Below are positions 6,805-12,294 of a stretch of DNA of 64,000 nt, piece by piece. Origin of the DNA: Dyadobacter luticola (GTDB lineage: Bacteria > Bacteroidota > Bacteroidia > Cytophagales > Spirosomataceae). The stretch covers positions 434,001-498,000 of the forward strand of contig NZ_VCEJ01000005.1 in assembly GCF_005860805.1 (NCBI RefSeq), read 5' to 3'. The notes below the pieces were generated by a model that had not been told where the DNA came from, did not search any database, and saw nothing but the letters and a program-made list of their open reading frames with translations. The position numbers and the translations under genes were made by a program. Each line of letters opens with the position of its first letter. Within the stretch, counting starts at the first letter, position 1.

Positions 6805-7413
6805 ATGTTCAAAAAATTATTACTTTTTGCCTGGGTAGCATTAATGGTGGCATTCATTGCAAGCTGTAAAGGGGAGCAGGGTGATGTGGGACCAAAAGGA
6901 GACACAGGCGCTGCGGGACCAACCGGGCCAGCGGGACCTGCCGGCGCTGATGGCCAGGATGGTACGGGTGGCGGCGGTGGAGGCTCGATCATCGCTTTTA
7001 TGGGTGAAATTGAGACGGATACAGCTGGTAATATGGTTGTTGGTGATACTGCTTTCTTCACGGGATTTACCGCAGATGAAATTAAAAGTGTTGAAAAAGG
7101 GGTTTTCCAGGTGTATCTTAAAGATGATGGCGCTTATTTCCCAGTACCAGGACTTGTTCTTTTCAGTGACGAGGCGATTAGCTATGGTTATTACTATGCT
7201 GTGGAAGGCAATGCACTATACTTCCCAATTTACAGAACATCTGCGGCGAAAGTGAAAAAGCGGTCATTTGAAGAAGTTAGAGTTCTGGTTATCCCAGCGG
7301 CCAATGCAAACGGTCGGGTGAGTTCAAATGTCAATTGGAAAAATTACGATGAGGCGGTAGCAGCGTTAGGGCTAACTGAGGCGGATGTAAAGGTGGTGAG
7401 AAAAGGTCACTGA
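6805..7413 (+). CDS. Lipoprotein with a collagen-like Gly-X-Y stretch
   Basis: The 202-aa protein has a lipoprotein signal ending in AFIASC (Cys21 is the probable lipidated residue). Directly after it come ten Gly-X-Y triplets (about residues 23-52: GEQGDVGPKGDTGAAGPTGP and on), then a glycine-rich linker (TGGGGGGS) and a C-terminal domain of about 140 aa that I do not recognise. Ten triplets can form a short trimeric collagen helix, so a trimeric stalk holding the C-terminal domain off the membrane is plausible. The 205 bases upstream are AT-rich and noncoding. A hairpin terminator follows. Confidence 0.8.
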   Translation: MFKKLLLFAWVALMVAFIASCKGEQGDVGPKGDTGAAGPTGPAGPAGADGQDGTGGGGGGSIIAFMGEIETDTAGNMVVGDTAFFTGFTADEIKSVEKGVFQVYLKDDGAYFPVPGLVLFSDEAISYGYYYAVEGNALYFPIYRTSAAKVKKRSFEEVRVLVIPAANANGRVSSNVNWKNYDEAVAALGLTEADVKVVRKGH

Positions 7414-7500: not shown

Positions 7501-8568
7501 TTAATATTCCCAAAGACCGTGTTCAAGCTCCATCAACTCCTGTTCGTAGTTAAGAGATTTGATCAACGCTTCTTTTTCGCCGCTGTAAATGTCCAAAAAC
7601 GCTTTATCGCTGGCATTTGAGAATTTCACGATCCTTCCGTAGAATAAGCGCAGATCAAATGCATCTGCCAGGTTTTTATTCTGGGCGGTATTATGCGTGT
7701 TATACCAGATATATTTCTTAGGATCGCTTCTGAACAATCTTTCAGCATCTTTCCAGCGGAATGAAGCAACTGGTACTTCAAGACCCGTCGCAGTTTGATC
7801 AGACGGAAGAATGATTGTCAAAGTCTGAACATCATTATAGAGGCGTGATCTCTTTTTGTCAAATGTCCAGTCTTCCTTGATCTCAATGATACTCAACTGC
7901 TCAGGAAAGTATTCTTCGTCGCTTGCAGCTACCTGGGTTTCGAAAGATGTAGAGTCTACCTTAGGTTGTTCTACCACAGGTTCTGCTTTTGCCACCTCGT
8001 TTTTAGCACCTTTTTTAGAGCTTTTCTTCTTAGGAGGTCCCCATCCATCGTCTTCTACGATTGCCTCTTTCTTAGGATCTTTTTTTGCAGTATTTCCCCA
8101 GCCATCGTCCGCCGAGGTTGCTTGCTTGGCAGGATCTGCTTTTGGTTTGCCTCCCCATCCGTCATCCGTTTTTGCAGGTTCGCCAAATCCGGCTGCTATC
8201 TCTTCTGCCGATAGTCCGGCTGTCTGATTAGGGATTAATATACGCTTATGCAGATCATCAGAAGTAATCTTGGTTGCGCAAGAATCATTCGTGTAAGCAT
8301 CGATCAATCCTGCTTTCGCAGCTTCCAATAAATAACGGGTAATCTCATTATTTTTTGAAAACATGGATACGTTCTGCTTTTCTTTCAAGTCGATCCGTCT
8401 CCATAATGTCCTTTTCATCATCACATCGCCATCACTGATGGGACGGGATGAGAAATTGTTTACAGTCGAGTCCTCCTTTTCCTGGGCAAATGCAACTCCG
8501 GTTCCCAGCGACAAGGATAACAAAGACAGTGCAATGTGTTTTCCGTTCATTCTTCTCATATCACGCAT
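7501..8568 (-). CDS. gldN: Type IX secretion / gliding motility protein GldN (PorN)
   Basis: GldN/PorN is a periplasmic component that forms rings with the lipoprotein GldK/PorK under the outer membrane. I place the start at the ATG at 8568 (38 bases after the gldM stop), which gives about 355 aa with a signal peptide ending GTGVAFAQ; the frame is open further up inside gldM but without a good start. Family segments: ISDGDVMMKRTLWRRIDLKEKQN near the N-terminus, and IIEIKEDWTFDKKRS, SFRWKDAERLF and KNLADAFDLRLFYG later. Between them sits a low-complexity insert with a 19-residue repeat (listed separately). Last gene of porP-gldKLMN. Confidence 0.93.
   Translation of the reverse strand: MRDMRRMNGKHIALSLLSLSLGTGVAFAQEKEDSTVNNFSSRPISDGDVMMKRTLWRRIDLKEKQNVSMFSKNNEITRYLLEAAKAGLIDAYTNDSCATKITSDDLHKRILIPNQTAGLSAEEIAAGFGEPAKTDDGWGGKPKADPAKQATSADDGWGNTAKKDPKKEAIVEDDGWGPPKKKSSKKGAKNEVAKAEPVVEQPKVDSTSFETQVAASDEEYFPEQLSIIEIKEDWTFDKKRSRLYNDVQTLTIILPSDQTATGLEVPVASFRWKDAERLFRSDPKKYIWYNTHNTAQNKNLADAFDLRLFYGRIVKFSNASDKAFLDIYSGEKEALIKSLNYEQELMELEHGLWEY
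7996..8166 (-). repeat. 57-bp (19-codon) tandem repeat inside gldN
   Basis: Three consecutive 19-residue units each begin with DDGWG, followed by a lysine/proline/alanine-rich segment (GKPKADPAKQATSA; NTAKKDPKKEAIVE; PPKKKSSKKGAKNE). Their DDGWG starts are spaced exactly 19 codons apart (about residues 135, 154 and 173 of the protein counted from the 8568 start). The units are diverged apart from the DDGWG box. Confidence 0.85.
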
Positions 8569-8605
8569 AAGGTTGTATTGACCAAACAACGACTGAATTT
8601 TTTTA

Positions 8606-10198
8606 TTAGTATAAGATGACACTTCTGATTTGGTTGCCCATTTCAACCTCGTTCACAGCACCTTTAAAGTTCTGGCGCTCAACTTTTAAAATCGTGATCA
8701 CATAGCGGTCACCAGGTTGTGCTTGTTGTGCCAGAGAAGATATTGAACCGCCACCGCCACTCAATGTAACACCATTAATGCGTCTTGTGCCGCGGGCCAG
8801 CGAAACTTCAATTTGAGATACCCTGAATTTCGCATCTTCCGGAGAGAAGTTTTTAAAGCTTTCGTCAGGAACGGCAATTACCTGAATGCTGCGGGTTCCG
8901 CTTGCAGGCGCGCCGCGTCTCTCGTCAAAAGTTGCACCATTTACACGCACTTCGATAGAAGGCTTGGGCACTTTATTTACTCTGAAAGGCTCGCTACCCA
9001 GCTGGTTTCCAGCATTAAATACATTAATGTTCAGCTGCGCTTTATTAGGGACAATCGTGAATTTTCCTTTTTGTCCGCTCGCGATAATTTCGCCGCCATC
9101 TGTTGTAAAATTAGGTGCCCAAAGCGCGCCCAATGCAGGGCTCTGAATACTCAGCTTATTTGCGCAACCCAGATACAAGGGAGGCAATGTTCCTGTCTCG
9201 ATCTGGTAAGATGGTTTTACAACAAAATATTCCTGGCTCATGCTGTAAGTGGTATCTCTGCCCGAAGGGGTAGGGATGGTGATTTTACCTTGCAGCTCTC
9301 TTTTTGCCAAACCTTCGGCATTATAGCCACCACCTTGTGCAGTGAACTCGATCAAACCAACACCATTTTCAACTTTCACAGGCGCACCGTTTAAGCTCAT
9401 ACGGGGAGTGATACCTGATGCGGAAGCCGCAATGAACATTTGTCCTTTAAACTTGGTACCTGCTACAACCGTCTTGGCGTCTGCGCTTACCATAGCCAAA
9501 ACACGGTCAAACTTGATATCAGCTGCACCTACTTTGCTGGCGAGATAGTTCAAAACTTCACCCTCCATCCGGCGGATGTCGGTTTGTTTCTGGCTCAATA
9601 CCGCCAATGCTGCTGCTACGGGAGTCGACTCAAAATTAAGCTCGGCAAAATCCTTATTGCGCTGCTCCTTATTTCCTTTCACAACTGGATCATCTTTTCC
9701 ATCCAATGCAAGTCCTGAAAATTTGTTAGGAGAAATCTCGCTCAATTTGGAAGAATAAGCATTTAATGTTTGCTGCAATTTGTAGGCTTCTCCTTTTTTT
9801 CCAGCACCAATCATCATCTCAGCCACTTTTGCCTCTTCTTGCGGATTTTTGATCCCGCCTTCCTCATTCAAACCGCCGCCAGCTTTGGTAATGATCTGTT
9901 GTTTCAGGGCATTAAGCTCATTGGTAATATCAGACGAAAGTTTGCGAACATCTTCTGCTTGTTTAAAAACGGCCACATCCGCTGCGCGGTTACCTGATTT
10001 TTCTACCGCAGATTTTATTTTAAGTACAGTTTCCTGGTTGATTTGATTTGCTGCTCCGGAGGATAGTTCCAAAGAATTGTTCAGAAGAATGAATTTTTCT
10101 ATAATGGCTGAACTTACCTGCAATGCGAGCATCGCGGTAAGTACCAGATACATCATTCCAATCATCTTTTGACGGGGTGTTTCTTTTCCACCTGCCAT
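8606..10198 (-). CDS. gldM: Type IX secretion / gliding motor protein GldM (PorM)
   Basis: GldM and GldL form the proton-driven inner-membrane motor of the T9SS; GldM has one membrane helix and a long periplasmic rod that contacts the GldK/GldN ring. The 530-aa protein starts with the family signature MAGGKETPRQKMIGMMYLVL, in which the single membrane helix (about residues 14-34) follows, and continues as a coiled and beta-domain periplasmic part. Length is normal (about 515-530). It lies 90 bases after gldL and 37 bases before gldN. Confidence 0.96.
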   Translation of the reverse strand: MAGGKETPRQKMIGMMYLVLTAMLALQVSSAIIEKFILLNNSLELSSGAANQINQETVLKIKSAVEKSGNRAADVAVFKQAEDVRKLSSDITNELNALKQQIITKAGGGLNEEGGIKNPQEEAKVAEMMIGAGKKGEAYKLQQTLNAYSSKLSEISPNKFSGLALDGKDDPVVKGNKEQRNKDFAELNFESTPVAAALAVLSQKQTDIRRMEGEVLNYLASKVGAADIKFDRVLAMVSADAKTVVAGTKFKGQMFIAASASGITPRMSLNGAPVKVENGVGLIEFTAQGGGYNAEGLAKRELQGKITIPTPSGRDTTYSMSQEYFVVKPSYQIETGTLPPLYLGCANKLSIQSPALGALWAPNFTTDGGEIIASGQKGKFTIVPNKAQLNINVFNAGNQLGSEPFRVNKVPKPSIEVRVNGATFDERRGAPASGTRSIQVIAVPDESFKNFSPEDAKFRVSQIEVSLARGTRRINGVTLSGGGGSISSLAQQAQPGDRYVITILKVERQNFKGAVNEVEMGNQIRSVILY

Positions 10199-10288: not shown

Positions 10289-11104
10289 TTAGGCATTACC
10301 TCCGCGCATTGCAGTAAGCATGTTACCGTAAATGCCATTCAAAGAAGAAATGTTAGTTGTCAGTTTCGACATTTCGCTTTTAAATACCTGAGATTCTTTT
10401 GTAGCATCTGCCATGTTTTCCATCGCAGCAGTCAAGTTGCCATAGAATGCATTCATTGCTTTCAAATGCTTCGTAGTGTCTTGCAATTCCAGTTCATAGA
10501 CAGCATTTAATGCGCCCATATTTTTAGTAATCTGCTGAAACTGGTCTCTGTAAGACTGTGCATCTTTCGTAGCATCGGCCATAGAGCTCATCGCGTTGAT
10601 CGCAACACCATACGATTTATTCATGTCATTGATTGCAGTTGAAGCATTTTTGACATTTTTCGCGTAGTCATTGGTAGCAACTGTCGCATCAGTCAGGTCT
10701 GAAATTCTGCCAACGGTGTCAGAAAGATTTCTGAACCCTTTTCCAAGGCTGTCGAAAACTTCTGGGGACAACTTGGCATTGTCCAGCATGTTGTCAAGTT
10801 TCGCTGTGATGTTGCTGCTTTGTGTTGAGCCACGTGTGATAGCAGGTCCGTTGTAATCGTCCGCCAGCTCAGGATACACACGTGTCCAATCCGGATCTTT
10901 ATCTGCTCTTTGTGTAATTGTTTGTAGCGCATATAGTAGGAAAATAACTACCTCAGTTCCCAAACCGATAGTAAGCATCTCGCCACCTCCATCCCAATGT
11001 TGAATTTTAAATAAAGCTCCTAAAATTACGACTGCTGCACCCGCGCTATATATTGTAGGTACTACCCTATCCCAAACAAAACTAGGTCCATTACTCTTAG
11101 CCAT
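10289..11104 (-). CDS. gldL: Type IX secretion / gliding motor protein GldL (PorL)
   Basis: Inner-membrane partner of GldM. The 271-aa protein has two closely spaced N-terminal membrane helices (about residues 11-32 and 39-60; the segment FKIQHWDGGGEMLTIGLGTE is typical, with the glutamate in the second helix thought to be the proton-binding residue) and a long cytosolic helical tail (about 90-271) made of repeating segments (YRDQFQQITKNMGALN; FKSEMSKLTTNISSLN). It is separated from gldK by a terminator-like hairpin. Confidence 0.96.
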   Translation of the reverse strand: MAKSNGPSFVWDRVVPTIYSAGAAVVILGALFKIQHWDGGGEMLTIGLGTEVVIFLLYALQTITQRADKDPDWTRVYPELADDYNGPAITRGSTQSSNITAKLDNMLDNAKLSPEVFDSLGKGFRNLSDTVGRISDLTDATVATNDYAKNVKNASTAINDMNKSYGVAINAMSSMADATKDAQSYRDQFQQITKNMGALNAVYELELQDTTKHLKAMNAFYGNLTAAMENMADATKESQVFKSEMSKLTTNISSLNGIYGNMLTAMRGGNA

Positions 11105-11220: not shown

Positions 11221-12294
11221 CTAGCGACGACGGGCACGGGCACCTCCACGGTCGTTAACATTATCCATCACGCAGCGGAACCCTATGAAAGCCCGGCGTT
11301 CGGTTTCAAATTCATAGGTACGTGTACCAGTTTGCAGGTAGTAAGCAATGTCTTTCCATGAACCGCCTTTTACAACCTTACGAGGTTCGTCAGGATTATT
11401 GTATTGCGGGTTCATATCCCAAACAATCGCAGTAGCATTATCGGTATAAGCATCCGAAGTCCATTCTGCCACGTTTCCAGCCATATTATACAAGCCGAAA
11501 TCATTTGGATTATAAGCGTTTGCCGGTCCGGTGTATGGGTATCCATCAGCGTCATAATTTCCGCGCTGCGGTTTGAAGTTAGCCAGGAAGCATCCCTTTG
11601 CATTCATCGTGTAAGGGTTACCCCAAGGATATTTCGCAACTGCTCTTCCACCGCGTGCAGCCCATTCCCACTCAGCTTCGGTCGGTAAACGGAAGCCAGT
11701 TGAATTAAACTGACCTTCTTTGTTTTGAAAATCGTGCAGCAAATTGGTTCTCCATTTTGAGAAATACTCTGCACCGATCCAGCTAACACCTACTACCGGA
11801 TAAGTATCGAATCCCGGGTGCTGATAGTAATATTCTACAAATGGGTCTCCGTTTGAATAGGCGAAGTCTTTTTTCCAGACAGTTGTATCGGGATAGTATT
11901 TGGACATAATTTCTTCCTCGCCCAAAACTGATACAGAGTCAACTAAAAGTGCATTGACGAACTGGCGGTATTCATTGTTTGTGATTTCAGTGTCATCCAT
12001 GAAGAATGAACTGATGGTAACGCGGCGGTTCATGTTGTTCATTGAAGATGCAATATCTTCGTCCGCCTGGCCCATCACAAAAGAGCCTGAGGGTATAACC
12101 ACCATACCTGCGGGTGTTGTCTGCTTAAATCCCTTCCGGGCTGTTGCTGTAATTTCTCCGTTTGAGATACCGCTTTCTTCTTTTCCGCCCTTGCCAAACT
12201 TGCTCTTGATAAATCCGCAACTCTGCATGAGCATAAGAGCGGCTATCAAAAGCAAACTTTTGACTCCATCCCGATAGAACACTTTCACATTCAT
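11221..12294 (-). CDS. gldK: Type IX secretion / gliding lipoprotein GldK (PorK)
   Basis: Outer-membrane lipoprotein that forms the periplasmic ring with GldN. The 357-aa protein has a lipoprotein signal (LLLIAALMLMQSC, Cys26) and a formylglycine-generating-enzyme/sulfatase-modifying-factor fold (about residues 60-345): GMVVIPSGSFVMGQ, SWIGAEYFSKWRT, GFRLPTEAEWEWAARGG, YNMAGNVAEWTSDAY and KVVKGGSWKDI. In GldK this fold is structural; the enzymatic cysteines of true FGE are not apparent. A 357-base noncoding gap separates it from porP upstream. Confidence 0.95.
   Translation of the reverse strand: MNVKVFYRDGVKSLLLIAALMLMQSCGFIKSKFGKGGKEESGISNGEITATARKGFKQTTPAGMVVIPSGSFVMGQADEDIASSMNNMNRRVTISSFFMDDTEITNNEYRQFVNALLVDSVSVLGEEEIMSKYYPDTTVWKKDFAYSNGDPFVEYYYQHPGFDTYPVVGVSWIGAEYFSKWRTNLLHDFQNKEGQFNSTGFRLPTEAEWEWAARGGRAVAKYPWGNPYTMNAKGCFLANFKPQRGNYDADGYPYTGPANAYNPNDFGLYNMAGNVAEWTSDAYTDNATAIVWDMNPQYNNPDEPRKVVKGGSWKDIAYYLQTGTRTYEFETERRAFIGFRCVMDNVNDRGGARARRR

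Follow-up and report, generated by a model that had tools for sequence, protein, structure and literature searches.

The GldN protein encoded in a 64,000-nucleotide window of the Dyadobacter luticola genome (the window being the whole stretch of DNA that was analysed) carries an array of three DDGWG motifs in a predicted disordered insert. Across the Spirosomataceae, the conserved element of this array is the DDGWG core, often extended to DDGWGxPxK, and not a 19-residue repeat; the 19-residue period is local. GldN itself is known, and the array is a clade-specific variant of it. We tentatively read the array as a set of flexible, multivalent docking motifs on what may be the motor-facing side of GldN, most likely for D4 of GldM or for another periplasmic partner.

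A three-unit insert in the window GldN

The reading frame listed first in Table 1 encodes GldN, a ring protein of the T9SS (gliding) machinery. In profile searches the protein scored 200.4 bits against PF19841 (cut-off 23, E 4.1e-59) and 131.1 bits against TIGR03523 (cut-off 85.9, E 4.7e-38), above both cut-offs for GldN/PorN (structures 7pvh, 9ots, 9myj, 9mzu), and PF19841 was its sole Pfam match at E up to 10, with none to PF02839. Its AlphaFold model, of moderate confidence, has the same fold, matching the PorN crystal structure 7pvh_A (Z 14.2, rmsd 3.3, 165 residues) and 9mzu_B (Z 13.8, rmsd 4.2, 171 residues aligned). The VIA-align comparison listed a single entry other than PorN, a fatty acid synthase with Z 2.1. 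The genes gldM, gldL and gldK adjoin gldN on the same strand, forming a gldK-L-M-N cluster. The listed gldN frame, which starts at a TTG, overlaps the end of gldM at 8606-8646, and a later ATG is the probable true start; from the reading of the signal peptide, mature GldN probably begins at Gln55 (window position 8484). Convergent with the 3' end of gldN, a frame at 6805-7413 on the forward strand encodes a likely lipoprotein of 202 aa with collagen-like Gly-X-Y repeats, GPKGDTGAAGPTGPAGPAGADGQDG.

Table 1 Features of the gldN region, in window positions
Feature	Position	Strand	Description
gldN ORF	7501..8646	-	381 aa from listed TTG; PF19841, TIGR03523, fold match to PorN 7pvh_A
gldM	8606..10198	-	TIGR03517 E 3.5e-124; motor arm, proposed partner
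gldL	10289..11104	-	TIGR03513 E 2.4e-75
gldK	11221..12294	-	TIGR03525 E 2.1e-131; ring lipoprotein
LSAEEIAAGF block	8185..8214	-	just before the array; short predicted helix, mature H93-97
Disordered segment (predicted)	7921..8178	-	mature residues 103-188, pLDDT <50
Unit 1	8110..8166	-	DDGWGGKPKADPAKQATSA; core 8152-8166; least conserved of the three units
Unit 2	8053..8109	-	DDGWGNTAKKDPKKEAIVE; core 8095-8109
Unit 3	7996..8052	-	DDGWGPPKKKSSKKGAKNE; core 8038-8052
DKKRSR turn	7843..7860	-	by alignment the putative equivalent of PorN turn F156-D162 contacting PorK

The PF19841 match spans 310 residues for 228 profile positions, giving the window protein about 80 more residues than PorN. Where PorN has a short loop, the window protein has its three DDGWG units, placed between the helices and the strand that leads to the PorK-contacting turn. 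A sequence-only reading of the window had described three 19-residue units, each starting with DDGWG, at 7996-8166, and the translation matches this description exactly. Beyond the core the units are dissimilar: any two of them have 25-35 of 57 nucleotides in common, and 3-6 of the 14 residues other than DDGWG, and Tandem Repeats Finder at score 30 listed nothing at the array DNA. DNA encoding DDGWG occurs five times in the whole genome, on one strand only (a reversed control pattern gave 0), with three sites in gldN, one in a GH16 glycosidase and one in a 74-residue frame that looks non-coding. A second DDGWG protein was considered as evidence of a shared receptor and was rejected, because the GH16 match is an enzyme and the other frame looks non-coding.

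Selection on the core and age of the units

Within Dyadobacter, the last unit contains DDGWG in 36 of 36 proteins. As this peptide is kept despite 21 different nucleotide spellings, it is the peptide that is selected. Counting from the C-terminal end, the next unit has DDGWG in 33 of the 36 proteins, and the first unit has the exact motif in 11, with a looser pattern fitting 33. As the first unit is often degenerate, even Dyadobacter does not strictly require three copies. In this count the middle unit is missing from L041, and the first unit of L062 and of L066 contains Phe. In an alignment (A1) of 44 of 65 named loci plus the window protein, residues D145, D146, W148, G149, P151 and K154 of the last unit were invariant in 45 of 45 Spirosomataceae proteins, much of the fold core being equally invariant.

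The units are old and have long evolved separately, without concerted evolution. In a set of 34 distinct proteins from Dyadobacter, of which 31 have exactly three Trp in the linker, the identity of the ten residues after the Trp between orthologous units was 0.45 for unit 1, 0.40 for unit 2 and 0.81 for unit 3. The same ten residues were 0.24-0.38 identical between units of one protein, which is the level found between units of different proteins. We therefore rejected a recent origin of the units by duplication, and likewise gene conversion: orthologous units are closer than units within a protein, the DNA shows no tandem repeat, and the units share no more than 25-35 of 57 nucleotides.

At the scale of the family, 120 distinct Spirosomataceae linkers contained 225 exact DDGWG motifs, compared with an average of 0.03, and never more than one in any of 500 rounds, when residues were shuffled within each linker. 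The 18 linkers of family f11 (f-numbers denote further sampled families) contained eight, and none after shuffling. The consensus at the 291 Trp residues of Spirosomataceae linkers was D(242) D(273) G(277) W G(260) x P(164) x K(196). Spacing was far less regular, with 19/19 in only 10 of 76 three-Trp Spirosomataceae proteins and a full range of 14-21 residues. With this spacing and pLDDT of about 30-35, a structural tandem repeat of the solenoid kind was rejected, as there is neither a fixed period nor order. The basic Lys/Pro/Ala segment of the sequence-only reading also proved not to be general: the median net charge from Trp to Trp was +2 in the Spirosomataceae and 0 in the Trp-type linkers of family f18 (range -3 to 0, 16 spacers).

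Distribution among GldN proteins

GldN was detected in 147 of 150 genomes of the family, which its named loci identify as the Spirosomataceae; the figures were 231 of 242 genomes for the order and 71 of 296 for the phylum sample. Proteins were read for part of the genomes with GldN, and after identical proteins and the partial proteins L095, L098 and L100 had been dropped, the final set comprised 237 distinct proteins, 202 from the Cytophagales and 35 from outside. One further protein from outside the order, L230 of family f27, with two Trp in its linker and no DxGW match, was left out of the final set, the tree and the shuffling. Genomes of family f2 (G168, G182, G195, G219, G241) and some of f4, f13 and f14 have several GldN matches each, up to six, which suggests an expansion of ring-subunit paralogues in some Cytophagales families.

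Exact DDGWG was present in 114 of 118 distinct Spirosomataceae GldN proteins, in three copies in 22, two in 63 and one in 29. The variation in repeat number that had been predicted is real: the Trp count of these 118 was three in 76, two in 15 and one in 27, and GldN linkers outside the family have up to four. A looser pattern, [DEGNSA][DEGNSAPT]W[GDNSEA], was found in 117 of 118 Spirosomataceae proteins, 158 of 202 Cytophagales proteins and 41 of 84 Cytophagales proteins outside the Spirosomataceae; L225 was scored as having none although it reads DDTDWG. The motif is hence not peculiar to the window protein, at least one protein in 10 of the 18 Cytophagales families sampled having it in the looser form. 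Nor is the repeat the same in every GldN, as alignment and counts made clear. Outside the order, 0 of 35 GldN/PorN proteins had the Trp motif, in keeping with the view of the sequence-only reading that flavobacterial GldN and Porphyromonas PorN are not known to have such an insert, and Porphyromonas gingivalis PorN has a short loop at the site; this absence reflects linkers that are short and nearly free of Trp, for which shuffling itself gives 0.3 of 35.

Comparison with shuffled linkers separated the families. The looser pattern was present in 117 of 118 Spirosomataceae proteins against 47.4 after shuffling, in 17 against 3.6 of 18 in f11, in 12 of 16 against 7.2 (shuffled maximum 12) in the f18 linkers that lack the carbohydrate-binding module (CBM) described below, and in 12 against 6.6 of 33 in the remaining Cytophagales families. 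The Spirosomataceae and f11 provide strong evidence for the motif, and other families, with their Gly/Asp-rich linkers, weaker evidence. Linkers of f11 usually have one or two Trp, whereas f17 and one f10 protein have Gly-rich DDWG arrays with two to four; two or three exact DDGWG motifs were found in 3 of 33 f18 proteins, elsewhere in the tree. Besides one or two Trp motifs, the f11 linkers of L115, L116, L120, L157 and L238 contain KDKxGKxI-type stretches. L210 (f10) has four (N/D)DPFA/G units, and L202 (f4) a mixture of DDFG, DDWG and DDGWG units. Versions of the motif with Phe were rejected as a general rule, since a looser Trp/Phe pattern fitted 6 of 26 Trp-less Cytophagales linkers against 5.8 by shuffling. 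Matches to DUF6465 (weak, 4 of 45 A1 members) and MSL1_dimer (1 of 81 members of a second alignment, A3, of 81 of 89 loci) were taken as low-complexity noise.

Outside the Spirosomataceae, a block of the form LSxEExAxGF accompanied the Trp motif: 26 of the 41 motif-bearing proteins had it, as against 2 of the 43 others, 17 of these 43 being CBM-type (Fisher p 4.6e-9, relatedness ignored). In a tree of the GldN core (114 rows, linker excluded, built by a quick method that gave a long-branch warning), the ten three-Trp rows among 28 Spirosomataceae rows formed one starred group. The three linker states, Trp motif, CBM and none, required 11 changes on this tree, so the Trp motif has been gained or lost several times.

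Predicted disorder and probable direction of the insert

The sequence-only reading had called the segment flexible, in agreement with an AlphaFold2 monomer model (45-sequence alignment, mean pLDDT 60.3, pTM 0.53) that predicts disorder at mature residues 103-188 and has pLDDT of about 30-35 over most of the array. The array follows the helical part and precedes the second half of the beta-sheet, and the A3 profile likewise places the insert between the PorN helices and the strand AEVKAYYVKEEWYF.

The published PorN structures suggest where such an insert would point. According to the available part of PMC12421860, the numbering of which equals that of chain 9ots minus 21 (W175 in our alignment being matched to W154), the PorN turn F156-D162 and residues N44-W47 sit in a pocket of PorK. 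By alignment, the strand after the array would have its PorK-proximal end at the DKKRSR turn of the window protein. This PorK-binding turn lies at the far end of the strand and the insert comes before the strand, so the exit point of the insert should be at the end of the fold away from PorK. The same paper assigns PorM D4 to PorN loops 4 and 6, which it describes as flexible, and supports this site by an engineered disulfide between PorM S460C and PorN A241C made in Escherichia coli. If that paper counts its regions in chain order, with the PorK-contacting turn as region 7, the insert would lie in or next to loop 6. Parts of PMC12635249 place PorM, as a prediction of weak confidence, at the periplasmic face of PorN between PorN copies, and argue that GldK and GldN form part of the gliding track.

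The suggestion that the insert extends the ring found no support here. AlphaFold gave the segment no structure, and by our mapping it lies outside the regions to which the consulted portion of the PorKN paper assigns contacts between PorN subunits.

A CBM5/12-type module at the same site

In one clade of family f18, about 45 residues matching CBM_5_12 (PF02839) replace both the array and the LSxEE block of GldN, at the same insertion site as the DDGWG array; CBM5/12 is a module, whereas the window array is predicted to be disordered. The loci concerned include L219, L220, L229 and L240-L252. Seventeen tree rows, sorted by eye from their linkers, are of this type; they form one clade (support 100*) within a group (support 87) that also holds relatives of the Trp type. 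Ten of the 17 fit the looser Trp pattern through the last Trp of the module, and all were excluded from the count of Trp-type linkers. As the additional f18 sample consisted of the best 30 of 76 matching genomes for one CBM-type query, it leans toward the CBM type.

Profile scans with CBM_5_12 matched 11 of 30 whole f18 proteins at E<=0.01 and, at E<=0.1, 13 of the 13 CBM-type linkers given, out of the 17 sorted; in a scan of four f18 proteins three matched, one of them above the cut-off (27.0 versus 26.2 bits, E 4.5e-6). No CBM_5_12 match was obtained for L226, one of the 17 rows. There was also no CBM match in 81 GldN proteins from outside the Spirosomataceae and f18, nor, at E<=0.01, among the 45 Spirosomataceae A1 proteins including the window protein. 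A profile built from the 13 linkers found the chitin-binding domains of chitinases (2rts_A, E 1.1e-7) as well as phage tail proteins. In CBM5/12 an exposed aromatic pair binds chitin. Sequence alignment placed Asp or Asn of the GldN modules (vDnkgs) at the aromatic position of the aligned chitinase (YW-TTS), which makes sugar binding by these modules doubtful.

Comparison with GldM D4

We compared 214 GldM C-termini and ran a pair test on 100 rows, which gave six independent pairs on supported branches and was read for R107 and the first three alignment columns. Positions R107, R45 and R81 of the D4 alignment were common with Trp-type linkers and rarer with CBM-type linkers, but the CBM types are one clade. 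R107 showed no difference over the independent pairs; at this column trait b differed in about 0.6 of six pairs, too few for significance. Coevolution of the Trp motif with GldM D4 was therefore set aside as a line of evidence: no tracking was visible, in a comparison whose six pairs give it no power.

Discussion

A selected core, free spacers, disorder, changes in copy number and a probable motor-facing exit together point to a strap of multivalent linear motifs, and variation in both the length and the charge of the spacers is what would be expected of linear motifs on a linker. As we picture it, a disordered strap would display one to three copies of an acidic-acidic-Gly-Trp-Gly docking motif and would leave GldN on the face, assigned from the PorN structures, that is turned to the periplasm and the GldLM motor, opposite the side of GldK and the outer membrane. 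Each DDGWG copy may be a weak, exchangeable binding site; multiplied on many GldN subunits, the copies would add avidity or reach, and such avidity could allow a moving partner to keep hold while ring or track and motor slide past each other. We think that GldM D4, the tip of the motor arm, is the likeliest partner, followed by peptidoglycan, neighbouring ring subunits, or SprE/PorW as another periplasmic binder of GldN/PorN. The pairing of PorM with PorN has earlier biochemical support, its geometry coming from AlphaFold models and the one engineered disulfide in the sections consulted of PMC12421860 and PMC12635249, one of which gives weak confidence for the predicted PorM-PorN surface and finds it little conserved. 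Several observations count against the docking reading: GldM D4 did not visibly track the Trp motif, the AlphaFold monomer shows no ordered, docked array, the first unit is often degenerate, the looser motif in f18 is only moderately more frequent than after shuffling, and a CBM5/12-type module at the site in one clade fits a glycan ligand better than GldM. The GldN proteins examined from outside the order do without the array, and coupling between motor and ring therefore does not depend on it in general.

That module is what keeps the main rival alive, namely that the Trp and Asp residues of the array, with Lys-rich spacers in the Spirosomataceae, might bind peptidoglycan or another wall glycan and steady the ring or track, CBM5/12 doing the same job elsewhere. 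The match of the CBM-type linkers to chitin-binding domains speaks for such a tether. We nevertheless judge it unlikely, as the GldN modules have Asp or Asn at the chitinase aromatic position, their profile also matches phage tail proteins, a five-residue disordered motif would in our judgement be an unusual lectin, and the Trp-type f18 linkers are strongly acidic (median net charge -16.5, 12 linkers), making them poor candidates for charge binding to wall polymers. The motifs might instead dock on a neighbouring GldN, GldK or GldJ and so strengthen or adjust the ring or filament. One array per oligomer subunit would suit docking in trans, and PorN termini act as arms in the solved ring, as far as the excerpts of PMC12421860 and PMC12635249 describe it; the predicted PorK-distal exit of the insert and the lack of docking in the monomer model, which cannot show trans contacts, weigh on the other side and make this distinctly improbable. 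A site for a different periplasmic T9SS component seems still less probable, even with a known candidate in SprE/PorW, the C-terminal domain of PorW binding PorN with pull-down support in the part consulted of PMC8754138. Least probable of all, and by our estimate very unlikely, is an entropic spacer in which length alone matters and the motif is incidental or drifted: linker length and spacers are highly variable, as it would predict, yet DDGWG is kept while the spacers drift, and stands far above the shuffled expectation in the Spirosomataceae and f11.

Repeated short linear motifs with an aromatic residue in an acidic context are known from the C-terminal tails of SSB and the Trp motifs of COPI. 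Like the array, these would combine a conserved acidic-aromatic core with a disordered linker of variable length and are sometimes multiplied; there is no common consensus, compartment or known receptor, and the likeness is one of analogy only. A limited literature search, covering few subscription papers and no preprints, found no earlier mention of the DDGWG array or of the CBM-type insert in GldN; two papers containing the letters DDGWG were unrelated, judging by their titles.

Broader than the docking reading of the array, and rather doubtful, is the idea that the motor-facing loop of GldN/PorN serves as an evolutionary socket, into which lineages plug either multivalent arrays of DDGWG hooks, as in many Cytophagales, or CBM5/12-type modules, as in one clade, tethering ring or track to the motor arm or to peptidoglycan and setting the grip during rotation. 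At issue is the way in which the proton-driven GldLM motor takes hold of the GldKN ring or track and lets it go. A conserved, countable docking-type motif on the presumed motor-facing side would offer a direct handle on this motor-ring grip, and the CBM5/12 module that another clade has in this position would be a second, independent handle on what that face touches.
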